The notes below the pieces were generated by a model. The model did no database searches, was not told where the DNA came from, and saw only the letters and a list, made by a program, of their open reading frames with translations. Made by a program: the position numbers and the translations under genes. A DNA stretch of 64,000 nt, from contig CADAHL010000010.1 in assembly GCA_902787755.1 (NCBI GenBank), forward strand, positions 1 to 64,000. The letters are read 5' to 3'. This document shows, piece after piece, positions 2,336-32,710 of this stretch. The stretch comes from Oscillospiraceae bacterium (GTDB lineage: Bacteria; Bacillota; Clostridia; Oscillospirales; Oscillospiraceae). Position 1 is the stretch's first letter; the number at the start of each line of letters is the position of its first letter.

Positions 2336-2465
2336 CCGAGTAGAGGGACTTGCCTGCATTTTCGCCTTGCGGGGGACGGCGAAAATCAAAGAATCGACCG
2401 GTGTTTGCACCGGTCGATGAACGCCCCGCCGGGGCGTTCGATTTTGATTCAAGTTCCTCTCTCTT
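2336..2465. repeat. tRNA-Pro-linked triple-hairpin element, copy A
   Basis: The left 17 bases (2336-2352) equal 3165-3181 in the acceptor/T arm of tRNA-Pro(TGG). Three hairpins follow: 2359-2366/2378-2385 (TTTTCGCC/GGCGAAAA), 2393-2403/2408-2418 (ATCGACCGGTG/CACCGGTCGAT, loop TTTG) and 2419-2427/2431-2439 (GAACGCCCC/GGGGCGTTC, loop GCC). The right end at 2450-2460 (CAAGTTCCTCT) is an imperfect inverted copy of the left end, so the whole can close as a cloverleaf. About 85 percent of positions match copy B at 32579-32710 by eye, with compensatory changes in the second hairpin. Confidence 0.75.
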
Positions 2466-2600
2466 GAGGTATCACGCTAATCTTGATACCTATGCACCCA
2501 GCCCTCAAGGTGGGGTGCACCGTCTTCTAAGGCTTTACCCTTGAGGGGAAGGTGCCCCAGTGCGCACACTGGGGCGGATGAGGTGTTTTCTCGGACTTTA
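2466..2600. repeat. Cluster of short palindromes
   Basis: Immediately right of copy A are three more hairpins: 2468-2473/2485-2490 (GGTATC/GATACC), 2493-2499/2513-2519 (TGCACCC/GGGTGCA) and a perfect 9-bp stem 2554-2562/2567-2575 (GCCCCAGTG/CACTGGGGC, loop CGCA). The last resembles the intergenic repeat type I know from gut Clostridia, where a CCCTTGAGGGGAAGG core is followed by a variable hairpin and GGATGAGG. I see no gene in 2172-2727; the two plus-strand open frames there run through these palindromes. Confidence 0.5.
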
Positions 2601-2727
2601 CTCGATGCCTTCCAGATTCAGCCGCCAAAGGTCGGCGCATACTCCATCAAAATTTCGATTGATATCAGCGTTACTGTACCCGGACAGATCAAGATTGAGG
2701 CGGGTTTCTGTACCTTTTTAGCGCCAT

Positions 2728-3036
2728 TCACTTATCCTTTATCTGATCTCTCTTCACCACAAATTTTGTTTCTCCCTCTATTGATTCGAGAGCATCGGGT
2801 TCACTGATATCAATTGAAACGGATTCTTCTTTTTCTCCCACTACAATACATCTCATCTCACCCTCACAAGGCGGGGAAATGAGATCTTGAACGGAAAACC
2901 ATGGCAGTTTGCCATGAAACATATGGTCGTTTCCATGGTAATCTGTAAGAACACAATCGACCCACAGAGGATATGAGGACGCATCGGTAACCCTCAATAT
3001 TTTCACACATACATTAGCCATTCTATTCATTTTCAT
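2728..3036 (-). CDS. Hypothetical protein between tRNA-Pro and its displaced 3' end
   Basis: A 102-residue, mostly polar and acidic protein without signal peptide, transmembrane segment or recognised motif. The start at 3036 is supported by AGGAGTG six bases upstream; a frame eight codons longer has no such site. It contains a conserved-looking Trp/Tyr-rich core (LWVDCVLTDYHG, LPWFSVQDL) of the kind seen in small immunity or phage-borne proteins, but no family can be named. It is the only gene between the intact tRNA-Pro(TGG) at 3161 and the tRNA-end copy at 2336, so it may be cargo of the inserted segment. Confidence 0.5.
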   Translation of the reverse strand: MKMNRMANVCVKILRVTDASSYPLWVDCVLTDYHGNDHMFHGKLPWFSVQDLISPPCEGEMRCIVVGEKEESVSIDISEPDALESIEGETKFVVKRDQIKDK

Positions 3037-3125
3037 GTTTGTCACTCCTGTTCGATCCAAGCATCTCGCGCCAGACCGCCCCGGACAGTTCGATTGCGGG
3101 GCAGATCAGTTTCCAAGGCATAATG

Positions 3126-3156
3126 AAAAATGCCGTTGTGGATAAACCGCAACGGC
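3126..3156 (-). terminator. Intrinsic terminator of tRNA-Pro(TGG)
   Basis: Just past the tRNA on the minus strand a ten-pair stem (3147-3156 with 3132-3141, one G-T pair) closes a short loop and is followed by ATTTTTC. Confidence 0.7.
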
Positions 3157-3160
3157 GTTT

Positions 3161-3236
3161 TGGTCCGAGTAGAGGGACTTGAACCCCCGACCTGATGGTC
3201 CCAAACCACCCGCGCTACCAACTGCGCTATACCCGG
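3161..3236 (-). tRNA. tRNA-Pro (anticodon TGG)
   Basis: A 76-base gene with CCA encoded. The acceptor strands CCGGGTA and TACTCGG pair with one G-U. The anticodon loop TTTGGGA gives anticodon TGG on a GGTGG/CCATC stem, and the T loop is TTCAAGT. A promoter lies 19 bases upstream and a terminator follows directly. Displaced copies of its 3' end are found at 1177-1191 and 2336-2352, which marks this gene as a probable integration target. Confidence 0.95.
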
Positions 3237-3254
3237 TTATTGGATTGCTGTGGT

Positions 3255-3283
3255 ATTATAGCGCAGTTTGGACATTTTCGCAA
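3255..3283 (-). promoter_or_regulatory. Promoter of tRNA-Pro(TGG)
   Basis: On the minus strand TTGCGA (3283-3278), 17-base spacer, TATAAT (3260-3255), placed 18 bases before the tRNA 5' end. It is divergent from the trmB promoter at 3292-3320. Confidence 0.7.
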
Positions 3284-3291
3284 GAGATTTC

Positions 3292-3320
3292 TTGATGTTT
3301 TCCCAGCCTTATGCTATGAT
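3292..3320 (+). promoter_or_regulatory. Promoter of the trmB-GNAT gene
   Basis: TTGATG (3292-3297), 17 bases, TATGAT (3315-3320), leaving a short leader before the ATG at 3341. Confidence 0.6.
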
Positions 3321-3340
3321 AAAAGTTGGAGTGTGACGCT

Positions 3341-4555
3341 ATGAGAATGAGAAAACGGCACAATTTGTGTCCCCGGATGGAGGCCTGCGGGGAGTATCTG
3401 ATCGACGAACCGCAGGAGCATCGGGGTCTGTGGCTGCAGGAGCACCCGGGCTGCCGCCATCTGCAGGTGGAGCTGGGCTGCGGCAAGGGCCGCTTTACCG
3501 TAGAGACCGCCCGGGCCAATCCCGACACCCTGTTTCTGGCCATCGAAAAGGTGCCCGACGCCATGATCCTGGCCATGGAGCGGGCCAAGGCCATGGGACT
3601 TCAAAACGTGCTCTTTATGGATTTTGACGCGGCCAATCTGTCCGGGATCTTCGCTCCCGGCGAGGCGGAGCGAATCTACCTGAATTTCAGCGATCCCTGG
3701 CCCAAAAGCCGGGACGCCAAATTTCGCCTGACGGCGCCGGGCTTTCTGCGCCTGTATGCCGACGCCCTGCCTCTGGGCGGGCAGATCCATTTCAAGACCG
3801 ACAACACGCCGCTGTTCGACTGGTCGGTGGAACAGTTTGAGGCGGAGGGCTGGGCGCTCTCGGAGCTGACCCACGATCTGCACAAAAACGGGCCTGTGGG
3901 CGTGATGACCGACTATGAGGCCAAGTTCGTGGCCGAGGGTCTGAGGATCAACCGCCTGGTGGCCACCCGGATCGAGACAACCAAAACCACCGCCGCGGGG
4001 CCGGTGCCCAGGCTGCGCAACGCCGCCCTGTCCGACGCCCGGGGACTGCACGATCAGGAGGACTCCCGGCTGCGGCTGGAGGAGGCCACGCTGGCTCTGA
4101 GCCAGATCTATTACGCACAGTTTGAACAGGATCCGGAGCTGTTTGAGGACAAGAGCCGGTTCGTCCCCTACCGCTATGATCCGGACGACGTGGCCGTCCG
4201 GTTCGCCGCCCGTCGGCAGCAGCCGGACCGGAAGAGCTTCTTCGTCCTGCTGGGCGACCAGGTCATCGCCGATCTGGTCTTCAAGCACATCGACCTCGAG
4301 AACAGGTGCTGTGAGCTGGGGCTCTGCCTGGTGAACGACCGGTGGAAAAACCGGGGCTACGGCACCGAAGCCCTCCGTCTGGCGGTTCGATACGCCTTCG
4401 AGACGCTGGGGATGGAGACGGTGCTGGCCGATTCCCTTCTGACCAACACCCGCAGCCAGCACGTGCTGAGCAAGGCCGGGTTCCGCTACATCCGTGAGGA
4501 TGGGCATTTCAAATACTACCAGATCCGCCGTCAGGCCGAGGAGAAAGAGATATGA
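3341..4555 (+). CDS. trmB: TrmB tRNA (guanine-N7)-methyltransferase fused to a GNAT acetyltransferase domain
   Basis: Residues 1-215 are a complete TrmB, the SAM-dependent enzyme that makes m7G46 in tRNA. The SAM loop ELGCGKG is at 44-50, the catalytic-region motif NFSDPWPK at 115-122 and FKTDN at 151-155. After a Thr/Ala/Pro linker, residues 222-400 form a GNAT N-acetyltransferase with the acetyl-CoA loop KNRGYGTEA (336-344) and [13 protein letters not shown] (369-381). Stand-alone TrmB is usually about 210 residues, so this is a true two-domain protein; no stop or frame change separates the halves. I start it at the ATG at 3341, with GGAG upstream, not the TTG at 3326. Its stop overlaps the exonuclease start (ATGA). 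The acetylation substrate is unknown. Confidence 0.88.
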
Positions 4556-5319
4556 AATTCATTTCCTGGAACGTAAACGGTCTGCGGGCCGTGATGAAAA
4601 AGGGCTTTGAGGAGATTTTTCAGGGCTTTGACGCGGACTTTGTGTGCCTGCAGGAGACCAAGCTCCAGGCCGGACAGATCGACCTGAGCTTTCCCGGCTA
4701 TGAGAGCTACTGGAGCTACGCCGAGAAGAAGGGCTATTCCGGCACCGTGATCTTCGCGCGGCATGCTCCTCTCTCCGTACGGTATAATCTGGGGATCCCC
4801 GAGCACGACACCGAAGGCCGGGCCGTGACCCTGGAGTATGAGGATTTCTTCCTGGTCTGCGTGTACACCCCCAACGCCCAGGACGAGTTGAAGCGTCTGG
4901 ACTACCGGATGCGCTGGGAGGACGATTTCCGGGCCTATCTGCAGGAGCTGGACAAGACGAAGCCCGTGATCGTCTGCGGGGATATGAACGTGGCCCACGA
5001 GGAGATCGACCTGAAGAATCCCAAGCAGAACATCGGCAACCCCGGCTTCTCCTACGAGGAGCGGGGCAAGTTCACCGAGCTTCTGGCAGCCGGCTTCACC
5101 GACAGCTTCCGGGCTCTCTATCCCGACCGGACCGACGCCTACTCCTGGTGGAGCTATCGGGCGGCGGCCAGGGCCAGGAACGTGGGCTGGCGCATCGACT
5201 ATTTTGTGATCTCCGACCGGCTTCGGGACAAGGTGAAGGACGCCTTTATCCTGCCCGAGATCATGGGCAGCGACCACTGCCCCGTGGGTCTGGAGCTGAG
5301 AATGAAGAATGAAGAGTGA
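4552..5319 (+). CDS. exoA: Exodeoxyribonuclease III / AP endonuclease
   Basis: A 255-residue member of the ExoIII/APE1 family, a Mg2+-dependent enzyme that cuts DNA 5' to abasic sites in base-excision repair and has 3'-5' exonuclease activity. Family motifs are all present: WNVNG at 6-10, the metal ligand in QETK (34-37), VYTPN, GDMNVAH, GWRIDYF and C-terminal GSDHCPV with the catalytic His. It overlaps trmB by four bases and ends three bases before dusB, so the three genes are probably translated from one message. Confidence 0.93.
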
Positions 5320-5322
5320 AGC

Positions 5323-6300
5323 GTGAAAAGCCTTAGGATCGGAAACATAGAACTAAACGGGCGGGTGACCCTGGCGCCCATGGCGGGCGTCACGGATTTC
5401 GCTTTTCGCCGCCTGTGCCGGCAGGAGGGCGCGGCTCTGACCACGACCGAGATGGTCTCCGCCAAGGCCCTGGTCTACCGGGACGAGAAAACCCGCTCCC
5501 TGCTGTACCGGCCGGAGGACGAAGCCCCCTGCGCCGTGCAGTTTTTCGGTCACGAGCCGGAGATCATGGCCGAGGCGGCGGGTCTGGCCCTGGAGGGCTC
5601 CGGGGCGGATATTCTGGATATCAACATGGGCTGCCCGGTGGGCAAGATCGTCAAGTCCGGGGACGGCTCGGCCCTGATGCGCACGCCGGAGCTGGCCGGA
5701 CAGATCGTGGAGGCCGTATGCCGGGCGGTCAAGGTCCCGGTGACGGTGAAGTTCCGCAAGGGCTGGGACGGCGGGAATGTGAACGCCGTGGAGTTTGCCC
5801 GGATCCTGGAATCCGCCGGAGCCTCCGCCATCGCCGTACACGGCCGTACCCGGGTGCAGATGTACGCGGGGCGGGCCGACTGGGATATCATCCGGGAGGT
5901 CAAGAAAGCGGTCTCGATCCCGGTGATCGCCAACGGTGACGTCTTCACCGGAGAGGACGCCGCCCACATTCTGCGCTACACCGGCGCCGATCTGTGCATG
6001 ATCGGCCGGGGCGCCTTCGGCAACCCCTGGCTGTTCCGCCAGGCCAACGCCGCCGTCAACGGCGAGGACATCCCCGCTCCCCCGCCGCTGGCAGAGCGCA
6101 TGGACACCGCCCTGGCTCAGATCCGCCAGCTGGCGGACTATAGCGGCGAGCGCCTGGCCTGTCTGGAGGCCCGGCACCACGTGCCCTGGTATCTGCACGG
6201 GGTGGCCCACGCCGGATACTACCGCCAGCAGCTGGTCCACGTGGAGAGTCTGGCGGAGCTGGAAAAGCTCATCCGCGAGATCCAGCGGGACCTGAGATAA
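5323..6300 (+). CDS. dusB: tRNA-dihydrouridine synthase
   Basis: A 325-residue FMN-dependent Dus enzyme that reduces specific uridines in the tRNA D loop. The FMN-binding start APMAGVTD is at 18-25, the catalytic cysteine lies in [11 protein letters not shown], and the nucleotide loop is GRGAFGNPW. It is closest to the DusB/NifR3 subgroup by length and motifs. The start is a GTG three bases after the exonuclease stop, in a purine-rich stretch that can act as a ribosome site. It continues the trmB-exoA run and leads into the sigma-factor gene. Confidence 0.92.
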
Positions 6301-6318
6301 AGAGAAGGAAGTGATCGT

Positions 6319-6942
6319 GTGACTCTTGAGCAGGAACTGGACGCTGTACGCAGGGTCCAGAACGGAGATATGGACGCTTTTGAGCGTCTGGTGACGGCCA
6401 ACGAAAAACAGGTCTTTCATCTGGCCAAGGGCAAGCTGGGCAACGAACAGGACGCCCAGGACGCCACTCAGGAGACCTTTCTGAAGGTATACACCTCCAT
6501 CGGGAAGTTTCGCGGCGACTGCCGCTTCTCGGTCTGGGTCTATCGGATCGCGACCAACGTGTGTCTGGATATGCTCCGAAAGAAGGGGCGCCGCCCGGAG
6601 GTCTCGCTTGTCCGCAGCTCGGAGGACGAGGAAGAAGAGACGGAGACCCAGGTCCCGGACGTGGAGCTGTCTCCGGAGGTGCTGCTGGAGAAGAAGCTGA
6701 CCATTGAATCCGTGAGGGCCGGTCTGGAGACCCTGCCCGAGGATCACAGGAAGATCCTTCTGCTGCGGGAGATCCACGGTCTGAGCTACGAAGAGATCTC
6801 TCAGGCTCTGGATCTGGAGGTTGGTACGGTGAAATCCAGGATTTTCCGGGCGAGGAAAAAACTTGCCGCTTTTTTGATCCAATCCGGGAACATTCCGGAC
6901 TGGATCTCGTCTGGTAGTTTGAAAGGAGGCGATGTGCGTTGA
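6319..6942 (+). CDS. ECF-type RNA polymerase sigma factor
   Basis: A 207-residue sigma-70 family protein of the extracytoplasmic-function class: region 2 over about 25-95 (with DAQDATQETFLKVY and WVYRIATNVCLD) and region 4 over about 135-190 (LPEDHRKILLLREIHGLSYEEI). An acidic insert joins them (SSEDEEEETETQ). The start is a GTG preceded by GAAGGAAG. The stop overlaps the TTG start of the next gene, a zinc-finger anti-sigma factor, which is the standard pairing for signal-dependent release of the sigma factor. The inducing signal cannot be read from the sequence. Confidence 0.92.
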   Translation: MTLEQELDAVRRVQNGDMDAFERLVTANEKQVFHLAKGKLGNEQDAQDATQETFLKVYTSIGKFRGDCRFSVWVYRIATNVCLDMLRKKGRRPEVSLVRSSEDEEEETETQVPDVELSPEVLLEKKLTIESVRAGLETLPEDHRKILLLREIHGLSYEEISQALDLEVGTVKSRIFRARKKLAAFLIQSGNIPDWISSGSLKGGDVR

Positions 6943-7688
6943 ACAGATGCAGCGAGTACCAGGAGCTGATCAGCCGACTCATCGACCAGGATCTGAACGT
7001 GGAAGAGGAGCGGGCGCTTCGGGAGCACATGGCCGAATGTGAGGACTGCAGGGCGATGTATGAATTCATGACCCAGATGTCCGATTCTGTCGCCGAGTCT
7101 TTGGAGGACCTCCCCGAGGGTCTTCATGAGAATATAATGGCCCAGGTGCGCCGTCAGGCCATCCGGGAAAAGAATCAGCCCCGGCGGATCCTTCGGGTGG
7201 TGCTGAGCACCGCCGCGGTGGCCGTGCTTGTGGTGGGCGTGGTTTTCGGAACCGGCGTGGGCCGGATGGGCAAGAGTCAGGCCGGTATGATGGCCGACGC
7301 CCGCATGAGCGCCGCCGCCGTGCCCGAATCGGCAGCGGCTCCCGCGGAGTTTGAAGCGGTCCCGGCGGAGGCGCCTGCGGAAGCGGAGGAAGCGATCGAA
7401 GCGCCCGCCGCCGGCAGCGATACCGCCTTTGACGTCGGCGTTACCGGTTGGCCCGGAGAGATTCTCCCCGACGAGCTGCGGGAGTTTCTCGGCGGCTACG
7501 ACGGCCAGGCCATTGAGGCCGAGCCGGGAGAGCCGGTCCAGATCCTGAACTTTGATGGGCAGGAGTTCGCCTTTTACGAAGTGGATGGCGCTCTTCTGTA
7601 CCGGGATCCGGCCGACGGTCAGATCTATCGTTCCGACCGGTCCGCCGAGCAGCTGCGGGAATTCATCCAGGGTCGCTTTGCTCCCTGA
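6939..7688 (+). CDS. Membrane anti-sigma factor with zinc-finger domain
   Basis: A 249-residue single-pass protein. The N-terminal zf-HC2 motif of ZAS anti-sigma factors is present (C4 and HMAECEDC around 29-36). One transmembrane helix follows near 85-108 (VVLSTAAVAVLVVGVVF). The extracytoplasmic part has an Ala/Glu/Pro-rich stalk and a globular C-terminal domain with no known family. It begins with TTG, overlapping the sigma gene by four bases, and so is translationally coupled. It likely holds the upstream sigma factor at the membrane until an envelope signal. A strong terminator follows. Confidence 0.88.
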   Translation: MNRCSEYQELISRLIDQDLNVEEERALREHMAECEDCRAMYEFMTQMSDSVAESLEDLPEGLHENIMAQVRRQAIREKNQPRRILRVVLSTAAVAVLVVGVVFGTGVGRMGKSQAGMMADARMSAAAVPESAAAPAEFEAVPAEAPAEAEEAIEAPAAGSDTAFDVGVTGWPGEILPDELREFLGGYDGQAIEAEPGEPVQILNFDGQEFAFYEVDGALLYRDPADGQIYRSDRSAEQLREFIQGRFAP

Positions 7689-7695
7689 AAAGGCC

Positions 7696-7746
7696 AAAAA
7701 GCAGAGACGAAGAGGTCAGCTGCGATCCTCTCCGTCTCTGCTTTTT
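7696..7746. terminator. Bidirectional terminator
   Basis: AAAAAGCAGAGACG at 7696-7709 pairs with CGTCTCTGCTTTTT at 7733-7746, enclosing a second small stem. T-runs occur on both strands, so it can end both the anti-sigma operon and the converging minus-strand genes. Confidence 0.85.
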
Positions 7747-7910
7747 CTCTCCCGATCCTTCCGCTTGTTCCGGTCATAGCTCTTCCGATCCGGACCCACC
7801 CGGGTCACCGGGGACAGGCCCTGCCAGTCTCCCCGTTGAGCGGCGTAAAACTTCTTTTTCTCCCTCTTGCTCAGTTTGGCCAGAGGGATATATTTTTTCT
7901 CTCCGGTCAT
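7716..7910 (-). CDS. Small basic conserved-type protein
   Basis: A 64-residue, very Lys/Arg-rich protein (KLSKREKKKFYAAQRGDW and a basic tail) with no membrane segment. It overlaps the 71-residue gene upstream by ATGA and has GGAGG upstream, so it is probably a real translated gene. Its C-terminus lies inside the terminator hairpin at 7696-7746. Charge and size suggest nucleic-acid or ribosome binding, but this is inference. I do not recognise a named family with certainty. Confidence 0.6.
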   Translation of the reverse strand: MTGEKKYIPLAKLSKREKKKFYAAQRGDWQGLSPVTRVGPDRKSYDRNKRKDRERKSRDGEDRS

Positions 7911-8122
7911 CGATTCAGCCTTTCCTCCAGTTTCTTCAGATCCTCCGGTGTGAAGGTCGCGCCGTTGATGCCGCAGCGCAGGCAGGCCCGGTGGAAGGCC
8001 GCGCTGTCGATGCGCGTCAGTCCTGTGGCCAGAAGCTCCCGGGCTACCTTCTCGATATGCTCCTCGGTTATGCCGCTGTACCCCGCCGCGCGAATGGCTT
8101 CCCGCCTCCAGCTTTTGAACAT
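7907..8122 (-). CDS. Small hypothetical protein
   Basis: A 71-residue soluble protein (MFKSWRREAIRAAGYSG...). The ATG at 8122 follows GGAGGGG at normal spacing. The same open frame extends far upstream to 10039, but that part lies opposite the methyltransferase and EcfA1 genes and is not coding. Predicted to be mainly helical with a short CLRCG pair of cysteines. It is translationally coupled to the 64-residue basic protein downstream, so the two may act together. No family recognised. Confidence 0.6.
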   Translation of the reverse strand: MFKSWRREAIRAAGYSGITEEHIEKVARELLATGLTRIDSAAFHRACLRCGINGATFTPEDLKKLEERLNR

Positions 8123-8234
8123 GGGCCGCCCCTCCTTCCTATGCTGTCTACGATCAGTATACCACAGTTCGCAGAAAGGACAAGGCATGATTTTCCCCCG
8201 CGCCGGGAAGCCTTGGAAGGGAGGTCCTTTCCTA

Positions 8235-8263
8235 TTGACCGAACCGGGATTCCATGGTACAAT
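8235..8263 (+). promoter_or_regulatory. Promoter of the methyltransferase gene
   Basis: TTGACC (8235-8240), 17 bases, TACAAT (8258-8263), about 40 bases before the chosen start at 8303. Confidence 0.75.
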
Positions 8264-8302
8264 ACCATGAATATTTATGGGAAAGAGCCAAAGGTGAACG
8301 AT

Positions 8303-9163
8303 ATGTGGGTTTCCGATCAATGGAAGGAATTCGAGCTGCTGGACTGCTCCGGCGGCGAGAAGCTGGAGCGCTGGGGTGATTATATTCTGGTGCGCCCGGA
8401 CCCCCAGGCCATCTGGGAGACGCCCCGGCGGGATCCCCGCTGGAACGCCCGGGACGCCCGATACCGCCGCAGCGAGACCGGCGGCGGCAGTTGGGACAAG
8501 GGACATCTGCCCGCCAACTGGCAGATCCACTACAAGGATCTCTGCTTCAACGTCAAGCCCATGAATTTCAAGCACACCGGTCTGTTTCCCGAACAGGCGG
8601 CCAACTGGGACTGGGCCATGGAAAAGATCCGCGGGGCCGGCCGCCCCATCAGCGTGCTGAACCTGTTTGCCTATACGGGCGCCGCCACAGTGGCCTGTGC
8701 CAAGGCCGGGGCCAGCGTCTGTCACGTGGACGCGGCCAAGGGCATGGTGGCCTGGGGCAAGGAAAACGCCGCCTCCTCCGGACTGTCGGACGCTCCCATC
8801 CGCTGGATCGTGGACGACTGCGCCAAGTTCGTGGAGCGGGAGATCCGCCGGGGCCGCCGTTACGACGCCATTATCATGGACCCGCCCTCCTACGGTCGGG
8901 GTCCGGGCGGCGAGGTCTGGAAGCTGGAGCAGAATCTGTGGCCCTTCGTGTCCCTCTGCGCCGGCGTCCTCAGCGACGATCCCCTGTTCGTGCTGATCAA
9001 CTCCTACACCACCGGTCTCTCCCCTTCGGTTCTGAGCTACGTGACCGAGAGCATCTTTACCAGGAAATTCGGCGGCCGCTCCGACAGTCAGGAGCTGGCC
9101 CTTCCCGTGACCGACAGCGGTCTTTTCCTTCCCTGCGGCGCCACGTGCAGGTGGGAAAGCTGA
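8303..9163 (+). CDS. Class I SAM-dependent methyltransferase, RlmI-like
   Basis: A 286-residue protein with the SAM-binding motif NLFAYTGAATVACAKAGAS and the acceptor-site motif MDPPSYGRG typical of rRNA-type RNA methyltransferases related to RlmI/RlmL. There is no N-terminal PUA domain, so it is shorter than RlmI. I place the start at the ATG at 8303 (AAAGGTGA upstream); an upstream ATG at 8267 lies almost on the -10 element. The product is therefore probably a 23S rRNA methyltransferase, but the target base is not evident. A set of tandem repeats follows directly after its stop. Confidence 0.8.
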   Translation: MWVSDQWKEFELLDCSGGEKLERWGDYILVRPDPQAIWETPRRDPRWNARDARYRRSETGGGSWDKGHLPANWQIHYKDLCFNVKPMNFKHTGLFPEQAANWDWAMEKIRGAGRPISVLNLFAYTGAATVACAKAGASVCHVDAAKGMVAWGKENAASSGLSDAPIRWIVDDCAKFVEREIRRGRRYDAIIMDPPSYGRGPGGEVWKLEQNLWPFVSLCAGVLSDDPLFVLINSYTTGLSPSVLSYVTESIFTRKFGGRSDSQELALPVTDSGLFLPCGATCRWES

Positions 9164-9403
9164 CCGCCGCTGCCGGTGGCAGAAGAAGGCGGGCAGCTTT
9201 CTCCGCAGCGGTCGAAAAATCGGAGGATCAGCGTAAGCCCGAACGATTTTTCGGGCACCGCAAGGCGGTTCAGGCTGCGCCGCCGGTGGCGGATGCAGCA
9301 GACTCGCAATCTCCGCAGCGGTCGAAAAACGCGAGGTAAGCGAAGCCCGAAGCGTTTTTCGGGCACCGCAAGGCGGTCCAAGCTGACCGCCGCCGGTGGC
9401 TGC
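9164..9403. repeat. Two tandem 110-bp structured repeats
   Basis: The block starting CTCCGCAGCGGTCG occurs at 9201 and again at 9311, and its closing phrase CCGCCGGTGGC occurs three times (near 9170 with one insertion, 9281 and 9390). In each unit a stem flanks a variable loop. Copy 1 pairs CGAAAAATCG with CGATTTTTCG and copy 2 pairs CGAAAAACGC with GCGTTTTTCG, so three base pairs changed on both sides while pairing was kept. No T-run follows. The array fills the gap between the methyltransferase and ecfA1. Confidence 0.75.
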
Positions 9404-9439
9404 CAATATTTTCAAATCATCCCTATCAAAGGACGCGCT

Positions 9440-10258: not shown

Positions 10259-10282
10259 TCATCATAGACCAGAGGAAACAGC

Positions 10283-25018: not shown

Positions 25019-25035
25019 TCCCCGATGATAAAACA

Positions 25036-25068
25036 CAGAGGCTGTGAAACGGACTTCACAGCCTCTGC
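25036..25068. terminator. Bidirectional terminator between two glycosyltransferases
   Basis: CAGAGGCTGTGAA and TTCACAGCCTCTG form a perfect 13-bp stem (25036-25048 / 25056-25068). It is followed by CATTTTATTT on the plus strand and TTTTAT on the minus. Confidence 0.85.
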
Positions 25069-25071
25069 ATT

Positions 25072-26013: not shown

Positions 26014-27437
26014 GCCTCTTCCTCCTTACCGGTTCGGTACCAGATCAGCCCCAGCACCAGGGCCAGATAGATCGATACATTGGGCCGGCGCACCAGGGCG
26101 CCGGAAAACTGGGCCAGGCCCAGCTGCAGCACCAGGCACAGCAGCAGCGCCACATTCTCCGCCGTCAGGCTTCCCTTGAAGTCCCGCCGCAGCTTTCGGA
26201 CCACTCGGATCAGGAAGAAGAGCAGAAAAACCGCATACAGTCCCAGGCCCAGATATCCGTAATAGAAGAACACGGCGGGCCAGTCGTTCTCCATGTCGTA
26301 GGTGCCGTCAAAGCCCACCTGAGAGACCTCAAAGCCCACCAGATGGGTCAGCGGATCCTGCTCCTCCCAGATCAGAGAGGAATAGCTGATCTTGATGACC
26401 CGGGTGTCGATGAGCTTTGCCACGTCGGTGGACATTTTGTAATGCTTCAGCACCCGCTCCATGCCAAAACGGTCGATGATATCCGGCAGCCAGCCCATAT
26501 ACTGCCAGTAATAATGCTCGAACACCGCCCGGACCTCCGGATCGGCATAGCGCTCCTCCGGGCTCATGTGGGTAATGTCGATGCCCTTGGCAAGCAGGGT
26601 GGCCTCGATCTCCCCCACCCTGGCGTCCCTGGCCAGGACCTGATTGACCCGGCAGCGGGGCGTGTAGGGATAGATGACCACGGCGAAGATCATCAGGAGC
26701 ACCAGGACCGCCACGGTGAACCAGCGCAGCTTCTGCCGGAACACCAGGCTCTCCATGCACAGGAAGCCCACGAAGGCGGCGAATATGGCAAACAGGCCGA
26801 AATAGCAGGCCTTGGTGCCGTTGGTGAGAAAGCAGGCCGTGATCAGCACGGGAATGAGCACCGTGACCAGCTTATTGTCGGTCTTCACCGCCGCCATGGC
26901 GCAGAACACCGACAGCGTCACCAGAATGATGCTGTTGGCGGTGCGGTTGTTGTCGATGACCCAGCCGCTGTAGCCCAGGCCCTCGCCATAGGTCACGTTT
27001 CCGGTGCCGGTGACATAGGCCAGCACCACAAACAGCCCGACGAGAGCCGCCGCGGTCAGCAGGCCGCGGATCCCCTGCCGGGCAGTCTGCTCATCCCGGA
27101 TCAGATATACAAAGGAGACCGCCATCACCGGCGCCTGAACCACCTTGGCCAGATAGGCGATATCGAAATACGGGCTCAGGTAGCCCACCCGAAAGCCGTT
27201 TAGCACGTGCAGCAGGGCAAAGACGGCGACGGCGGCCATGGCCAGCAGAAAGCCCTTCTTCCGCTTTGCGGTAAACAAAACCCACAGCGGCAGCGCAAGC
27301 ATCAGCGCCAGGCGGATATAGCCGGATACCGTGGCCACGGAATTCTGGTTAAAATACGCGACGGCGTCCAGCACCGGCTGAAATGCGATCAGCAGCCAGA
27401 GCCAGTGGCTCTTCCACCAGATGCGGATCTTTTCCAT
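26010..27437 (-). CDS. O-antigen ligase/polymerase-like membrane protein
   Basis: A 475-residue polytopic protein with about ten to twelve transmembrane helices and one large extracytoplasmic loop (roughly residues 270-400, with PRCRVNQVLAR and HYYWQYMGWLPD). This is the layout of Wzy/WaaL O-antigen polymerase/ligase proteins. The start at 27437 is chosen because GGGGGT lies upstream; longer frames lie opposite the rplS region. It is followed directly by a glycosyltransferase gene. The predicted job is joining or polymerising glycan units on the outer face of the membrane; which glycan is unknown. Confidence 0.7.
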   Translation of the reverse strand: MEKIRIWWKSHWLWLLIAFQPVLDAVAYFNQNSVATVSGYIRLALMLALPLWVLFTAKRKKGFLLAMAAVAVFALLHVLNGFRVGYLSPYFDIAYLAKVVQAPVMAVSFVYLIRDEQTARQGIRGLLTAAALVGLFVVLAYVTGTGNVTYGEGLGYSGWVIDNNRTANSIILVTLSVFCAMAAVKTDNKLVTVLIPVLITACFLTNGTKACYFGLFAIFAAFVGFLCMESLVFRQKLRWFTVAVLVLLMIFAVVIYPYTPRCRVNQVLARDARVGEIEATLLAKGIDITHMSPEERYADPEVRAVFEHYYWQYMGWLPDIIDRFGMERVLKHYKMSTDVAKLIDTRVIKISYSSLIWEEQDPLTHLVGFEVSQVGFDGTYDMENDWPAVFFYYGYLGLGLYAVFLLFFLIRVVRKLRRDFKGSLTAENVALLLCLVLQLGLAQFSGALVRRPNVSIYLALVLGLIWYRTGKEEEA

Positions 27438-27456
27438 AGGATAAACCCCCATATAA

Positions 27457-27493
27457 GTTTTATGGCGCCTTCGCACGGAAGACGCCATAAAAC
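27457..27493 (-). terminator. Inverted repeat downstream of rplS, probable terminator
   Basis: GTTTTATGGCG (27457-27467) and CGCCATAAAAC (27483-27493) are perfect complements. It lies 12 bases after the rplS stop on the minus strand. The T-rich part is in the stem, not after it, so termination may be partial, allowing read-through into the ligase-like gene. Confidence 0.5.
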
Positions 27494-27504
27494 ACGAACA
27501 GAAC

Positions 27505-27846
27505 TTACAGACGCTCTTTGACCTTCGCCTTCCTGCCCACGCGGTCGCGCAGGTAGTAGAGCTTGGCCCGGCGCACCTTGCCCTTGCGGACGGTGGCCAC
27601 GGAGACGATGGAGGGAGAATGCACGGGGAAGACCTTCTCGCAGCCCACACCGTAGGAGATGCGGCGGACGGTGATGGTCTCGTTGATGCCGCCATGCTTC
27701 TTGGCAATGATGGTACCCTCGAAAGCCTGGTTACGCTCACGGTTGCCTTCCTTCACGCGGACGAGGACACGCACGGTGTCGCCCACGTTCATCTCGGGCA
27801 GCTCGGGCTTCATGTACTGCTCGCTGAGAACTTTGACCAGATCCAT
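27505..27846 (-). CDS. rplS: 50S ribosomal protein L19
   Basis: A 113-residue protein, full length for L19, which sits at the 30S-50S interface. The conserved core [37 protein letters not shown] and the C-terminal [19 protein letters not shown] segment are intact. It has its own promoter and is placed away from its common trmD-rpsP neighbours, none of which is in the window. A leader of about 100 bases precedes it. Confidence 0.96.
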
Positions 27847-27951
27847 AATGATGATCCTTCTTTCCTATAGACGTTCAATACCGGAGGACTCTGCTCTCAT
27901 GGCAGGCACGGCAGCGGACCGCCTTTCTATGCTTGATGCACAAGCTATGGT

Positions 27952-27980
27952 ATTGTACCACAGCTTTCTTTGCATTGCAA
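27952..27980 (-). promoter_or_regulatory. Promoter and leader of rplS
   Basis: Minus strand TTGCAA (27980-27975), 17 bases, TACAAT (27957-27952). The untranslated leader of about 100 bases can form small hairpins (GCTTG/CAAGC and GGCGGTCCGCTGCC). A ribosomal-protein leader of the L19 type is possible but not shown. Confidence 0.7.
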
Positions 27981-27999
27981 GAGTTTTTCTGTCCGTTTT

Positions 28000-29079
28000 T
28001 TACTTTTCCCCGCACAGAGAAAGCACTCTTTGCAGGATCTGACCGTTGTAGTCCGCCAGATCGTCCGGACATTTCTCCATCTTGTAGGCCCCGACCAGGG
28101 CCCCGACCAGATCCTCCGTGCCCTGCAGACCTTCGATGTACTGTTCCAGATGCTTCGGGCAGATCACCGGCAGGCCCAGAACCATGGCCTCCATGATGTT
28201 CATGCCCTGGCCCTCGTAACGGGAGGTGGACAGCAGCGCGTCCATCCGGTCCATGTAGGCGAAGGGATTCGGCTGACTGCCCAAAAAAGTCACCGCATCC
28301 GCCAGGCCCAGTCGATCCCGCTGCTCCTCCAGCGCCCGGCGGTCCGGCCCGTCGCCGATGATATACAGCCGCAGGTCGCTCCGCTGCCTGTGGGCCTCGG
28401 CAAATACGTCCAGCATGATATCATAGCCCTTCTGGTGGCAGAGCCTGCCCAGGGCCGCCACGTTGAAGCAGGCGGGATCCAGCCGGAAGCCGGGGACCGG
28501 TTCGTTCACCTTCCGCCGGATCTCTTCCACATCAATGTAGTTGGGAATCACGGTGAAAGGCTTGTCCGTGATCCCGGACATGGCCCGGAACGGCTCGATC
28601 AGCGCCTCGGACACGGGGACGAAGCCGTCGTAATATTTGAACTTGCCCCGGAAAAAGTGCCAGAGCACCCGGTATTTCCACTCGTTGCGCAGCTTGATCG
28701 CCACGTCATTGTGGATCCACATGACCCGCTTCTTTGCCGGAACACTCAGGGCGCCCATGGCACAGGAAAACTGGTAGGAGTTAAAATCCACCGCCAGGTC
28801 GTATTCCGCGTCCTGCGGAAAACCGGCCCTGAAAGCGGGATCTGACTCCACTCTCTTCTTTCCGAAGTCAAAGGGCAGGAAGGAATAGACGCGCGGCAGG
28901 GGCTTCATGCGGATTACGCGGACCGACTCCGGGAGATCCGCTTCCCATTCGGAACCGGGCTCCGTCAGGTACAGATCCGCCTGAACCTTCGAAGTATCCA
29001 GATTCCGCAGCAGATTCACGATGGATTTCTGGATGCCGCCCACGCCCAGGTCGCTCTGAAAGAACGCGATACGTTTCAT
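28000..29079 (-). CDS. Family 4 (GT-B) glycosyltransferase
   Basis: A 359-residue GT-B transferase: N-terminal acceptor domain starting IAFFQSDLGVGGIQKS, a linker at about 185, and a C-terminal donor domain with AALGRLCHQKGYDI, IIGDGPDRRAL and the EGQGMNIMEAMVLGLPVI nucleotide-sugar block. The start at 29079 follows GAGGAGG. It is ten bases downstream of the radical-SAM-associated gene on the same strand, probably as a read-through addition to that operon. The sugar substrate is unknown. Confidence 0.88.
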   Translation of the reverse strand: MKRIAFFQSDLGVGGIQKSIVNLLRNLDTSKVQADLYLTEPGSEWEADLPESVRVIRMKPLPRVYSFLPFDFGKKRVESDPAFRAGFPQDAEYDLAVDFNSYQFSCAMGALSVPAKKRVMWIHNDVAIKLRNEWKYRVLWHFFRGKFKYYDGFVPVSEALIEPFRAMSGITDKPFTVIPNYIDVEEIRRKVNEPVPGFRLDPACFNVAALGRLCHQKGYDIMLDVFAEAHRQRSDLRLYIIGDGPDRRALEEQRDRLGLADAVTFLGSQPNPFAYMDRMDALLSTSRYEGQGMNIMEAMVLGLPVICPKHLEQYIEGLQGTEDLVGALVGAYKMEKCPDDLADYNGQILQRVLSLCGEK

Positions 29080-29089
29080 GGCGGCCTCC

Positions 29090-29755
29090 TCAGCGGTACA
29101 CCTGCATCCCGGCATCATAGGTCTCGATCCGCGTAAACTTGGCAAAATCCGGGGCCAGCTCCGGCTTCAGCTGCCGCAGCGCCTCGGCCAGCAGCTCCGG
29201 GTTGATGGTGGGCTCCTGGGCGGAGATCACGGCACTGACCTCTACCAGGCCCTCCCCCGCCGTAAAACCCAGTTCCCGGATGCCGGGGCGGATATCGGTC
29301 TCGCCCATGCCCCGCTTGGTCTTCTTGGTGATGACGATCTGCTCCTGCCGGTAGAAGTCCTCCAGCCCGGCGGCCATCTCCCCCGGGTCTCGCTCATCGT
29401 ACTCGAACACGCCCTCCACCCGGAGCCACTTGAGCTCCGCGGTCTTCCGAACCGGCAGATAGGCCTCGGTGACCACGATGCCCTCAGGCATGACGGCTGT
29501 GAGCCGTCCGGGCAGAGCCGCCAGATCCGGATTCTCCTCCTTGAGCCTGAAATCCATGATCTCGCATAGGCTCCCGGCGCCGACGGACAGGGGCAGCGCG
29601 ATGGCGATCTGGGGATGGGGATTGAAGCCCTCGGAATATTTCAGTTCGTAGCCGGCCCGGTTGAAGGCCCGCTGCATGGTGTGCATCAGATCCAGATGGG
29701 AGATATAGACGGCCCGTCCGGTCTTTTCAAAACGCAGTCTCAGCTTCTCACTCAT
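29090..29755 (-). CDS. TIGR03936/DUF2344 radical-SAM-associated protein
   Basis: A 221-residue protein of the DUF2344 (TIGR03936) family, recognised by LRLRFEKTGRAVYISHLDLMHTMQRAFNRAG and YSEGFNPHPQI. It always accompanies, or is fused to, the B12-binding radical-SAM protein encoded just upstream, whose end it overlaps by eight bases. Its biochemical role is not established. In many Clostridia the pair precedes the ribonuclease G and rplU genes; here a glycosyltransferase takes that place. Confidence 0.88.
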   Translation of the reverse strand: MSEKLRLRFEKTGRAVYISHLDLMHTMQRAFNRAGYELKYSEGFNPHPQIAIALPLSVGAGSLCEIMDFRLKEENPDLAALPGRLTAVMPEGIVVTEAYLPVRKTAELKWLRVEGVFEYDERDPGEMAAGLEDFYRQEQIVITKKTKRGMGETDIRPGIRELGFTAGEGLVEVSAVISAQEPTINPELLAEALRQLKPELAPDFAKFTRIETYDAGMQVYR

Positions 29756-31586
29756 CGCACTTGAACCCCCTGTCCAGAAGTCTGGCCGCTCCGCAGGCGG
29801 AGCACTGGTGCCGGCAATCCGGCGACAGCTCCGAGCGATAGGCCTTCTCCCGCTCCTTCCAGAGATGCTCCTTCCTCACGCCCATGTCGATATGATCCCA
29901 GGGCAGGAGCTCGTCCTTCCCGGCCTCCCGGTGAGCATAGAAATCCACATCCAGGCCGCAGGTCTCGAAGGCCTTGATCCAGCGCTCATAGGAGAAATAG
30001 TCCGTCCAGGCGTCCAGCCGTCCGCCCTGGCGCCAGACCTCCTCGATGGCGTCCGCCACCCGGCGGTCGCCCTTGGAGAGCACCGCCTCGATGAGACTGG
30101 TCTCCGCGTCGTGCCAGTTGTAGGTCACGTTCCGGGCCGTAATGGCCGAGCGCAGGAGATTCACCCGCCGCAGATACTCTTCCAGGGAGATCTGGGCCTC
30201 CCACTGGAAGGGGCTCTGGGGCTTGGGGATGAAACAGGAGGTGGAGACCGTGATCTTCACGCCCCGGTTCTTGTACTTGGCGTTCACCCGCCAGCAGTGG
30301 AGGATCTGGTTGGCCATCTCGGCGATGCCCAGGATATCTTCGTCAGTCTCGGTGGGCAGGCCCAGCATGTAATAGAGCTTCACCGTGTTCCAGCCTCCGG
30401 CAAAGGCGATGCGGCAGGTGTTCAGCACGTCCTCCTCGGTGACGTTCTTGTTCACCGCGTCCCGCAGGCGCTGGCTTCCGCCCTCCACGGCGAAGGTCAG
30501 GCCGCTTTTGCGCACCTTCTGCAGCCGCTCCATGATCTCCATGGAGAAGTTGTCCGCCCGCAGGGAGGGCAGGGACAGGCCGATGCTCCGGGGCTCACAG
30601 TATTCCAGCAGCCCGTCGCAGAGGGCGGGCAGGGGCCGGTAGTCGCTGGTGGAGAGGCTCAGCAAGGTCACGTCCTCATGGCCGGTGTTCTGCAGGGATT
30701 CGATGCCCTGCCGCACCAGGGTCTCGGGCTTCTTGGCCCGGAGGGGGCGGTACACGTGTCCGGCCTGGCAGAAGCGGCAGCCTCTGGGGCAGCCCCGGAA
30801 CAGTTCCAGGCTCACCCGGTCGTGGACCACCTCGGTGGAGGGCACGATGGGCGCGGTGGGATAGGGGGCCTTGTCGAAATCCGACAGGATCCGCTTGGTC
30901 ACCCTGGCCGGCGCGCCCTGTGTGGGCGAGACGGCGGCCACCGTACCGTCCTCGTTGTAGGAGACCTCATAGAGGCTGGGCACGTAAACGCCCCGGATCT
31001 GAGCGGCCTTCACCAGGAAATCCTGCTTGCTCCAGCCCGACAGCTTGGCCGTGCGCAGCAGGGTCAGAACCTCATTGTTGACCTCCTCCCCTTCTCCCAC
31101 AATGAACAGATCCAGGAAGGGGGCCATGGGCTCGGCATTGCAGGCAGCGGTGCCGCCGGCGAAAATCAGCGGCAGCAGCCCGGGCCGATCGGATGTGCGC
31201 AGGGGGATACCGGCCATGTGCAGCATGTCCAGCACCGTGGTATAGGCCATCTCATAACCGATGGAGAAGGCCACCGCGTCGAAGTCCCCCACCGGGTCCC
31301 CGCTCTCCAGAGCATACAGCGGGATCCCCGCCCGGTTCATCTCCTCGTACATATCCCCCCAGGGGGCGTAGGCCCGTTCGCACCAGACAAAATCCAGGCT
31401 GTTCATGGTGTGATACAGGATGCTCATGCCCAGGTTGGACATGCCGATCTCATAGGTATCCGGGAAGCAGAAGGCCAGGCGGATATCCACCTTGTTCTTG
31501 TCCTTGATGATCTGGTTGTACTCCCCGCCGGTATAGCGGGCAGGCTTCTGGACCCGGGGCAAAATACGCTCCAAACGTTTATCCAT
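29748..31586 (-). CDS. TIGR03960-family B12-binding-type radical SAM protein
   Basis: A 612-residue protein with an N-terminal cobalamin-binding-like Rossmann region (about 40-180) and a radical-SAM domain with the cluster motif CPRGCRFCQAG near residue 260. C-terminal C...HQCSACGA may bind a second metal. The start is the ATG at 31586 with GGAGA upstream; the longer frame to 31628 lacks a site. It is paired with the DUF2344 gene and preceded by an M50 protease gene, the order found in Clostridia for spoIVFB-TIGR03960-TIGR03936. No activity is established. Confidence 0.9.
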   Translation of the reverse strand: MDKRLERILPRVQKPARYTGGEYNQIIKDKNKVDIRLAFCFPDTYEIGMSNLGMSILYHTMNSLDFVWCERAYAPWGDMYEEMNRAGIPLYALESGDPVGDFDAVAFSIGYEMAYTTVLDMLHMAGIPLRTSDRPGLLPLIFAGGTAACNAEPMAPFLDLFIVGEGEEVNNEVLTLLRTAKLSGWSKQDFLVKAAQIRGVYVPSLYEVSYNEDGTVAAVSPTQGAPARVTKRILSDFDKAPYPTAPIVPSTEVVHDRVSLELFRGCPRGCRFCQAGHVYRPLRAKKPETLVRQGIESLQNTGHEDVTLLSLSTSDYRPLPALCDGLLEYCEPRSIGLSLPSLRADNFSMEIMERLQKVRKSGLTFAVEGGSQRLRDAVNKNVTEEDVLNTCRIAFAGGWNTVKLYYMLGLPTETDEDILGIAEMANQILHCWRVNAKYKNRGVKITVSTSCFIPKPQSPFQWEAQISLEEYLRRVNLLRSAITARNVTYNWHDAETSLIEAVLSKGDRRVADAIEEVWRQGGRLDAWTDYFSYERWIKAFETCGLDVDFYAHREAGKDELLPWDHIDMGVRKEHLWKEREKAYRSELSPDCRHQCSACGAARLLDRGFKCDE

Positions 31587-31629
31587 CGTATTCTCCGTCC
31601 CAACTGAAAGATTGTATCTGTAGGTCATT

Positions 31630-32235
31630 CTATACGATTTGCCGCTTTTTTACAAGACCCCGCGGGCTCTCCTGGCACAAAAGAAGCCATACTGCGCCGA
31701 GCAGCAGCGCAGCGCCCAGGCCCCGCAGCAGCAGCCAGATCCCCGCAGCGAGCATCGCGCAGCCCACGGCCAGGCTCAGCCGCTCCGTCAGCCGTCGGCC
31801 GGCCGCGTCTCCCAGAACCGCGGAAGACAGATGCAGCAGGATCCTTCCCCCGTCCAGCGGCAGAGCGGGCAGCAGATTGTACAGCGTCAGCAGCAGGCTG
31901 AGCCCCGCGCTGTCGGCCAGCCACAGCTGCCCGCTCCGGTCCGCCAAAGCTGACGCCCACCAGGCCCAGCCGGTTCCCGCCAGCGGCCCTGAAGCCGCTA
32001 TCAGCAGATGCCCCAGGACGTTTGTTGGTCCGGCATACTCCATGCACAGGCCGCCGCCGTCAAAGCGCAGGCCGCGCAGCCTCAATCCCAAAGCCAGGAT
32101 CATCAGCAGATGTCCCAGCTCATGGGCGCCGGCCGCCAGAAGCAGGGCCAGAAGCCGATCCGGCGGGAGCAGATACAGGAGGGCCGCGGCCAGAAGGATC
32201 CCTCCGGAGGCCAGGTCTACCGACAGCCTTCTCAT
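31630..32235 (-). CDS. SpoIVFB-like M50 site-2 metalloprotease
   Basis: A 201-residue polytopic protein. The zinc ligands are in HELGH at about 39-43, and the third ligand site is LPALPLDGGR near 125-134. These two motifs define the site-2 protease family, which cleaves substrates inside the membrane. SpoIVFB of sporulating Firmicutes processes pro-sigma-K, and the gene context here (next to TIGR03960) is the SpoIVFB context. GGAGGGG precedes the ATG at 32235. It overlaps a 75-residue membrane protein gene upstream by ATGA, which may be its regulator. Confidence 0.85.
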   Translation of the reverse strand: MRRLSVDLASGGILLAAALLYLLPPDRLLALLLAAGAHELGHLLMILALGLRLRGLRFDGGGLCMEYAGPTNVLGHLLIAASGPLAGTGWAWWASALADRSGQLWLADSAGLSLLLTLYNLLPALPLDGGRILLHLSSAVLGDAAGRRLTERLSLAVGCAMLAAGIWLLLRGLGAALLLGAVWLLLCQESPRGLVKKRQIV

Positions 32236-32459
32236 GCCCGCCCCTCCGTTTGCTGCAGGCCCAGGCTGATCGTCTCCGTCAATCCCTCCTGAGACAGCTC
32301 CCGGCCCAGAGTCCGGACCAGTTGGTCCAAAGTCCCCTGTCGGTCCAGAACGCTCTGCGTCAGCTGCCAGGCCTCTTCCCGGATCTGGGGATACCACAGC
32401 CGCAGACCCCAGGCCGCCAGCAGGAAAAGCAGTGCCAACAGGTACCTTCCCCTTTTCAT
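32232..32459 (-). CDS. Small membrane-anchored protein paired with the M50 protease
   Basis: A 75-residue protein with one N-terminal transmembrane helix (about 5-23) and an amphipathic extracytoplasmic tail containing REEAWQLTQSVLDRQG. I use the ATG at 32459, seven bases after GGAGG, instead of an ATG two codons earlier. In Clostridia an M23-domain protein resembling SpoIVFA often stands here; this protein has only the anchor and no peptidase domain. It could be a reduced SpoIVFA-like inhibitor, but similarity is not demonstrable by eye. Confidence 0.6.
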   Translation of the reverse strand: MKRGRYLLALLFLLAAWGLRLWYPQIREEAWQLTQSVLDRQGTLDQLVRTLGRELSQEGLTETISLGLQQTEGRA

Positions 32460-32540
32460 ACGCATCCCTCCCCCCGCAGTATATTTTCCCGGTGACAGGC
32501 TTATGCGGAAAGCCCTTCTGTGATTTCCTCCGAAGCATGC

Positions 32541-32578
32541 GAAAAACCGCCGATTTCAAAAGAAATCAGCGGTCTTTT
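32541..32578. terminator. Bidirectional terminator next to displaced tRNA-Pro end
   Basis: ACCGCCGATTTC (32546-32557) and GAAATCAGCGGT (32562-32573) pair with one mismatch around AAAA, with A-run before and T-run after. On the minus strand it directly follows the displaced tRNA-Pro(CGG) 3' end, copying the arrangement of tRNA followed by terminator seen at 35968-36086. Confidence 0.75.
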
Positions 32579-32710
32579 TGGTCGGAGTGGGGAGACTTGT
32601 CTGCGTTTCCGCCTTGCGAGGAACGGCGAAAACAGATGTATCGACCAGTGTTTGCACTGGTCGATGAACGCCCCACCGGGGCGTTCGATTCCGATTCAAG
32701 TCTCTCACTC
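32579..32710. repeat. tRNA-Pro-linked triple-hairpin element, copy B
   Basis: The first 21 bases (32579-32599) are identical to 36011-36031, the 3' end of tRNA-Pro(CGG). Then come the same three hairpins as copy A: 32606-32613/32625-32632 (one mismatch), 32640-32650/32655-32665 (ATCGACCAGTG/CACTGGTCGAT) and 32666-32674/32678-32686 (GAACGCCCC/GGGGCGTTC, loop ACC). The right end CAAGTCTC (32697-32704) is the exact complement of GAGACTTG at the left. Relative to copy A, a G-C pair in hairpin 2 has become A-T on both sides. Confidence 0.78.

Follow-up and report, generated by a model that had tools for sequence, protein, structure and literature searches.

Small three-hairpin elements fitted to the 3′ ends of neighboring tRNA genes in Oscillospiraceae, and their possible role as integrative cassettes

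Genomic islands, phages, and integrative and conjugative elements (ICEs) integrate at the 3′ ends of tRNA genes by means of tyrosine integrases. The rtT RNA of the Escherichia coli tyrT repeats is released by RNase P and tRNA 3′ processing. Integron cassette arrays, here in the form of clusters of attC sites lacking integron integrases (CALIN), serve as a further comparison. Integron attC sites are described as palindromic, with a folded bottom strand (PMC3053210). Here we describe small three-hairpin elements located behind tRNA genes, starting from two copies in a 64,000-nt stretch of DNA from an Oscillospiraceae bacterium (GCA_902787755.1, contig CADAHL010000010.1, forward strand, positions 1–64,000), hereafter the window. 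They are a widespread class of very small insertions, related to tRNA-end integration and to folded-site cassettes, and new to the literature searched: no description of such elements was found there, subscription papers lying outside its coverage. We put the probability that the copies are miniature, non-autonomous integrative DNA cassettes docking at tRNA gene 3′ ends at about one-half.

The elements share features with each of these systems. Like integron cassettes, they form units made of one or more genes, or (in most of them) nothing, plus a folded palindromic site; they occur in arrays, keep their pairing amid sequence drift, and carry cargo in sense. Unlike integron cassettes, they dock at the tRNA T-loop and 3′ end, have arms of tRNA sequence and three hairpins, and occur in genomes in which no IntI above the cut-off was found (0/12 genomes). 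Set against the attC core boxes, the element arms are tRNA T-arm sequence, as judged by inspecting the alignment. In common with islands, phages, and ICEs, the tRNA 3′ end is doubled as a direct repeat and the tRNA gene is intact; the elements differ from these in measuring about 180 bp, in having no integrase among the open reading frames (ORFs) scanned, and in adding an inverted tRNA-end copy and conserved hairpins. The tyrT/rtT repeats likewise stand in tandem downstream of a tRNA gene and each include its 3′ end, but they concern one tRNA and are not known to have a three-hairpin core, whereas the elements follow 19 anticodon types and gave no RtT match in Rfam, whose three matches were all far below gathering scores. 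Miniature inverted-repeat transposable elements (MITEs), REPINs, and other small palindromic repeats are equally small, non-coding, palindromic, and multi-copy; by contrast, the terminal sequence of the elements is variable, fitted to the neighboring tRNA, and placed behind it. The intervening sequences of 23S rRNA are hairpin insertions at a stable-RNA gene, and a gene for the 23S intervening-sequence protein (IVP) lies in one element interval (L247); unlike those sequences, the elements leave the host RNA gene intact, and no general association with IVP emerged. IVP as the element's own protein was rejected: it matched in 45/102 genomes (43 above cut-off), and, among the matches listed, with lists compared by eye, one place (in G101) adjoins an element.

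The two window copies, A (2336–2465) and B (32579–32710), are 83% identical across the element and are both read in the tRNA sense on the minus strand. A first-pass annotation, made from the sequence letters, had reported both copies, with 17 nt of tRNA-Pro(TGG) in A and 21 nt of tRNA-Pro(CGG) in B, paired changes in hairpin 2 (ACCGGTG/CACCGGT versus ACCAGTG/CACTGGT) and in the outer arms, and a right end that resembled the matching tRNA end in inverted form; each of these observations held. What it had missed is that each copy is placed 3′ of the very tRNA gene whose end it carries. ARAGORN called two tRNA genes in the window, these two tRNA-Pro genes (Table 1), and the distance from element to tRNA is 0.7 kb for copy A and 3.3 kb for copy B, so that the tRNA end forms a direct repeat around 0.8 kb or 3.4 kb of sequence, respectively. 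Compared with dinucleotide shuffles, both strands of both copies folded with z-scores of −5.95 to −6.80, and 0/200 shuffles folded as well.

To describe the family, copy B was compared by BLAST with 99 relatives, its own genome included; matches occurred in 43, some of them bare tRNA-Pro ends. A covariance model, R1, was built from an alignment of 42 elements. R1 found the element in 56/102 genomes of the genus, many of them incomplete, with five copies in the window's own genome. In the bacterial family it matched 17/300 sampled genomes, in 10/106 genera; in the order, 4/295 genomes, namely the window's own, G369 (from a different genus), and two whose matches are weak and lack an ARAGORN tRNA; and in the phylum, the window's own genome alone among 398. 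The many copies, their link to tRNA ends, and the many further covarying pairs were what the annotation had expected of such a search. In other genera, 20 regions were read: an ARAGORN tRNA lies 41–51 nt before the element in 12, and of the remaining 8, six have a tRNA 3′ end by eye, one has it at a distance of 176 nt, and the last is unclear. Most of the elements in other genera retain two short sequences: an ATGCA-like motif preceding the 3′ arm and a CC..NATTT-like linker preceding hairpin 1. One exact form of hairpin 2 occurs in 22 stretches of named records, titled as uncultured Oscillospiraceae, Ruminococcaceae, Clostridia, or Clostridiales, and five of the 22 titles refer to rumen, omasum, or abomasum samples. 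The R1 matches in G211 and G141 (27.5–33.3 bits) were dropped from the counts for want of an ARAGORN tRNA; the weak matches in these genomes (L103, L104, L105, and L106), which have no tRNA end, are other multi-hairpin repeats. In some elements (L023, L043, L053, and L061), hairpin 1 has an extra loop of about 25 nt.

Position and end fit were assessed in a working set of 158 distinct elements from 44 genomes (G369 contributed 4; the other 154 belong to 43 genomes of the genus), which was drawn among the matches listed rather than at random and from which 3 of 161 had been excluded as truncated or odd. The nearest ARAGORN tRNA lies within 75 nt for 98/158, and in 97 of these 98 the element is 3′ of the tRNA on the same strand, starting 38–68 nt past the tRNA end. 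At least two same-strand tRNAs lie upstream within 1 kb in 18/98, and none was found within 1 kb on the other side in the sequence examined (0/98); thus, the element follows the last tRNA. Among the other 60, 19 have a tRNA end but no ARAGORN call and 2 lie at contig ends. Twelve nucleotides identical to a known tRNA end stand at the right place in 126/158 elements, and 135/158 have at most one mismatch, a level reached by 0.1% of random core windows. A hairpin unit without a tRNA end, which the annotation had named as speaking against its proposal, is therefore the exception. Its link to tRNA 3′ ends was borne out, while its restriction to tRNA-Pro was not, given the 19 anticodon types.

The ends are fitted to the particular tRNA that precedes each element (n = 97). 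The 12-nt sense (3′) arm is identical to its own tRNA in 71/97, with a mean of 0.91 mismatches versus 4.85 to other types, and the antisense arm averages 1.48 mismatches to its own tRNA versus 4.76 to other types. Between tRNA and element, the spacer forms an inverted repeat bearing A and T tracts and is terminator-like by eye. At L133 and L028, a single, almost unbroken palindrome spans the tRNA end, the spacer hairpin, and the antisense end. At L238 (9888–10036), the 5′ arm consists of sense tRNA-Arg sequence, anticodon arm through T-loop, which gives the impression of a core placed straight into a tRNA copy. Behind the tRNA-Pro(CGG) elements at L136 (after 10671) and L027 (after 1619), there is an antisense palindromic copy of the anticodon arm of this tRNA.

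One locus provides a clear empty and filled pair. In G119, tRNA-Pro(TGG) is directly followed by a hairpin. In G049, a relative, the same tRNA leads into another spacer hairpin, after which come the antisense arm and the three hairpins, a second CAAGTCCCTTCACTCGGACCA, and finally the G119-type hairpin. The two genomes are 93% identical over 122 nt across the junction, and the 21-nt tRNA end (C56–A76) is doubled at the filled site. The G119-type downstream hairpin also lies distal to elements in G032, G007, G021, and G116 (81–89%), and the cores and inner spacers at these tRNA-Pro(TGG) loci are of at least three kinds (G049; G007; and the mutually similar G032, G021, and G116). Likewise, the sequence adjoining tRNA-Ser(gga) in L237 is found distal to elements in G000, G017, and G013 (85–92%). 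Where the 21-nt copy has at most one mismatch (43/97), the unit measures 168–204 nt, with a median of 180. In four elements, two of them in tandem arrays, the copy stays exact over all 42 nt compared, reaching far into the spacer hairpin, and arrays of elements occur at L017, L020, L026, L114, L116, and L244. Mean core identity is 0.669 between different tRNAs of one genome, 0.648 between different genomes at the same tRNA type, and 0.626 where neither is shared. Similar cores also occur with different tRNA ends, for example, Lys and Leu in G130 (93%; the tRNA-Leu itself is absent there) and Arg in G116 and Ser in G038 (92%). The tRNA-Leu(caa) body is missing before an element in G130, whose downstream flank is 95–97% identical to that in G027, where the tRNA is intact (L131 and L270).

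Pairing was examined in 99 elements, none among the 42 of the model, aligned to R1 over 30 pairs. Overall, 95.1% of cells are paired, double-change cells number 675 versus 195 after shuffling, and the covariation score is 0.609 versus 0.200, a signal destroyed by sliding the partner. Less striking is the number of pairs with change on both sides (24 versus 20.7, reached by 5/500 shuffles), and one hairpin 2 pair (columns 52–72) is open in 50/99 rows. The stems differ in the kind of change they hold. Hairpin 3 has 3 G-U and 1 A-C in 693 cells (G-U 0.4%) and hairpin 2 has 10 and 6 in 792 (G-U 1.3%), while the outer stem has 26 and 5 in 890 and hairpin 1, where the alignment is poorest, 58 and 11 in 589. 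In 71 tRNAs of the same loci, G-U pairs make up 7.2% of the acceptor stem and 12.1% of the T stem. The compensatory changes expected of a structured RNA are thus present, but with few G-U intermediates in hairpins 2 and 3, which behave like DNA palindromes. This points to a folded DNA strand under selection, or to template switching that rewrites both arms, rather than to RNA. As for which strand folds, the excess of G-U over A-C leans toward the tRNA-sense strand, though the alignment was fitted in that sense. The whole element is more stable in sense in 97/158 (mean difference −0.47 kcal/mol) and the core without arms in 68/158, giving no clear strand preference.

Genes also lie between the tRNA and the element. 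Most units are gene-free. In seven intervals, measured from the tRNA or an inner element to the distal element, nine ORFs longer than 120 aa were taken as genes; all nine run in sense, and eight have a Pfam match (Table 1). At L237 (8199–9802), two copies of the tRNA 3′ end enclose the restriction and methyltransferase genes, which have tRNA-Ser(gga) on one side and an element on the other. At L261, the element end matches the further tRNA 3′ end, one not called by ARAGORN. Small unassigned ORFs stand alone in two intervals, those of copy A and L240, and the 1.2-kb interval at L254 has no ORF of at least 90 aa.

Table 1. Positions of the elements, their parts, and neighboring genes in the window, with cargo genes of other loci
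Feature	Position	Strand	Basis or remark
Copy A, whole hairpin element	2341..2461	−	Model R1, 131.5 bits
Copy A, 3′ arm	2336..2352	−	17 nt identical to tRNA-Pro(TGG) positions 56–72
Copy A, hairpin 1 (variable stem)	2358..2386	−	Sequence reading and folds
Copy A, hairpin 2	2393..2418	−	Sequence reading and folds
Copy A, hairpin 3	2419..2439	−	Sequence reading and folds
Copy A, 5′ arm	2446..2459	−	Antisense copy of tRNA T-arm
110-aa ORF in copy A interval	2728..3060	−	No Pfam match
tRNA-Pro(TGG), gene preceding copy A	3161..3236	−	ARAGORN
Inverted repeat and T-tract right after distal tRNA-Pro(CGG) end of copy B	32539..32578	−	Terminator-like by eye; not called by consensus scan
Copy B, whole hairpin element	32588..32708	−	Model R1, 121.4 bits
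Copy B, 3′ arm	32579..32599	−	21 nt identical to tRNA-Pro(CGG) positions 56–76, including CCA
Copy B, hairpin 1	32605..32633	−	Sequence reading and folds
Copy B, hairpin 2	32640..32665	−	Sequence reading and folds
Copy B, hairpin 3	32666..32686	−	Sequence reading and folds
Copy B, 5′ arm	32693..32709	−	Antisense copy of tRNA T-arm and part of acceptor
Inverted repeat and T-tract between cargo genes and copy B	32710..32752	−	Terminator-like by eye; not called by consensus scan
Cargo between tRNA-Pro(CGG) and copy B: ATP-binding cassette (ABC) exporter	32868..34682	−	PF00664 and PF00005
Cargo between tRNA-Pro(CGG) and copy B: helix-turn-helix (HTH) and tetratricopeptide repeat (TPR) protein	34630..35763	−	
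tRNA-Pro(CGG), other end of copy B interval	36011..36086	−	ARAGORN
Cargo at L237: XhoI-type endonuclease and methyltransferase		Sense	
Cargo at L238: Na/Pi cotransporter		Sense	
Cargo at L239: GNAT		Sense	
Cargo at L260: 161-aa protein		Sense	No Pfam match
Cargo at L261: HTH		Sense	Follows tRNA-Thr(tgt) and one further tRNA 3′ end
Cargo at L247: IVP		Sense	

Two further features of the window were recorded. Between copy A and tRNA-Pro(TGG), at 2529–2592, lies a short interspersed repeat (around gtgccccagtgcgcacactggggcggatgagg). Genomes throughout the genus contain many sequences nearly identical to this repeat, and the palindrome inside it is similar to hairpin 2 of the element. On the plus strand, a T-box leader (44000–44241) lies immediately 5′ of a 389-aa ORF.

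Speaking for the elements as miniature cassettes are their placement 3′ of the tRNA, the fit of both arms to it, the empty and filled pair, the unit length, the DNA-like stems of hairpins 2 and 3, the similar cores with different tRNA ends, and the sense cargo. From these we infer the following steps of mobility. Read in tRNA sense, the unit comprises, in order, the tRNA 3′ end, a terminator-like hairpin (alone or together with genes), the antisense T-arm, the three hairpins, and once more the sense tRNA 3′ end, from C56 of the T-loop. A strand of the excised unit would fold so that the antisense and sense arms pair, creating a double-stranded replica of the tRNA 3′ end; in the excised circle, the arms would make one helix, from which the spacer hairpin would extend at one end and the three hairpins at the opposite end. 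Such a replica made from a single strand would account for both arms matching the tRNA and for the stems being Watson-Crick. A recombinase supplied in trans may then recombine the folded unit with the tRNA gene, which would be kept intact while its old 3′ end and downstream sequence become distal. Genes caught between the arms would travel as cargo, much like integron cassettes. The specificity for a tRNA could arise because the tRNA would stay functional only if the cassette brings the right 3′ end.

Several observations weigh against these cassettes. The recombinase is one: at the TIGR02249 cut-off, no integron integrase was found in the 12 genomes, and no recombinase was identified. None of the interval ORFs scanned is an integrase. 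Of five integrase matches in the window's own genome, two are Xer-like as judged by inspection, and none shares a contig with an element; in this genome and eight element-rich ones, the integrase places, among the matches listed, are outside the units. A resident integrase was accordingly rejected, as the integrases nearest the listed elements (G033 C12, G127 C49, and G035 C51) also lie outside the units. Those of G033 C12 and G127 C49 adjoin apparent split tRNA-Arg genes, probably prophage borders. Likewise, tRNA-Arg 3′ parts from near the anticodon loop precede the elements at L134, L129, L174, and L205, of which L134 and L205 are near integrase genes; these four are probably prophage borders splitting tRNA and element. 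A phage or plasmid origin of the elements themselves was rejected, as blastn against phages and plasmids gave no match to the element and viral contigs gave none to the one exact pattern searched.

Other points concern the units. A single strict empty site was seen, and loss through recombination between the direct repeats would look alike; gain and loss are indistinguishable from one pair. In the nearest-neighbor test (n = 95 of 158), the closest core shares the tRNA type in 44/95 cases (7.9 when shuffled), so that most inheritance is within a tRNA type, and it shares the genome in 8/95, which is not beyond chance (shuffled mean 3.3, maximum 13). No tRNA end lies within 100 nt upstream of 39/158 elements, the exact sense copy spans just 0–8 nt in 22/97, and in only 8/97 does the antisense copy extend across the acceptor and CCA with one mismatch or none in 11 nt (never in 20 shuffles of each spacer). 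A consensus terminator scan of two regions called hairpin 2 and not the spacer hairpins, whose A and T tracts pair with each other. At L259, an antisense gene lies upstream of a displaced element. The cargo count left out ORFs that overlap elements, tRNAs, or genes with Pfam support; some of these ORFs are antisense (for example, at L241 9247–9678, at L238, and at 32520–34466 of the window). Finally, the overall G-U to A-C ratio of 97:23 is one that RNA would also give.

That ratio bears on an alternative that we regard as unlikely yet worth weighing, in which the element is a structured RNA from the tRNA read-through transcript, released by RNase P and tRNA 3′ processing, with the doubled tRNA end as a processing signal. 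The fixed orientation behind tRNAs, the abundant paired and double-change cells, the greater sense stability of the whole element in a majority of cases, and the fact that some copies, read in sense, finish with a tRNA 3′ end plus CCA would all suit such an RNA. It is at odds with the scarcity of G-U in hairpins 2 and 3 relative to the 7–12% in tRNA stems of the same loci, with the sense preference of the armless core in a minority of elements, with the patchy presence among genomes, incomplete as many are, and with genes between tRNA and element in seven intervals. The annotation had offered both a small mobile element that targets tRNA ends and a tRNA-mimicking RNA; the former is the better of the two, and a folded DNA attachment site agrees better than the RNA with the presence of cargo genes and of palindromes that are nearly perfect. 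A reverse-transcribed origin, in which a read-through RNA would use the spacer hairpin to prime its own reverse transcription, copy the tRNA end in antisense, and become inserted as cDNA, would account for the antisense tRNA end right after the spacer-hairpin T-tract in some loci. Most antisense arms, however, end at the T-stem; we consider this origin very improbable.

The annotation had also concluded that selection acts on base pairing. Pairing is indeed conserved, but selection is not the sole reading, since template switching can change whole pairs, in both arms at once, as set out in PMC8794818. On that basis, the elements could be passive repeats: regions behind tRNAs would duplicate, and template switching at palindromes would make and repair hairpins with neither function nor mobility. 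Somewhat less probable to us than the RNA, this would explain whole-pair changes with few intermediates and the single palindrome of tRNA end, spacer hairpin, and antisense arm at some loci (L133 and L028). G035 and G118 are also relevant here: at a common tRNA-Leu locus with flanks 91–94% identical, their spacer hairpin, hairpin 3, and hairpin 2 are wholly different while hairpin 1 is identical, a pattern that fits DNA-fold selection and template switching alike. However, origin de novo at each tRNA is not expected to give a homologous three-hairpin core behind 19 anticodon types and in other genera, with motif and linker mostly kept.

In a family of uncultured gut bacteria, the elements thus rewrite the sequence that follows tRNA genes on the 3′ side, and their ends are matched to the individual tRNA. 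Even if passive, they offer rich natural data on the evolution of perfect hairpins with few G-U intermediates. We further suggest, tentatively and with the odds against it, that they form a gene-capture system parallel to integrons and separately evolved, in which tRNA genes are many attI-like docking sites; cassettes with a folded single-strand site would then sort by tRNA and carry restriction systems, transporters, and enzymes without an integrase of their own. If the elements are indeed integrative cassettes, they would represent a second natural solution to gene capture via folded single-stranded sites. They would also illustrate how tRNA loci can accumulate genes when no integrase resides there.

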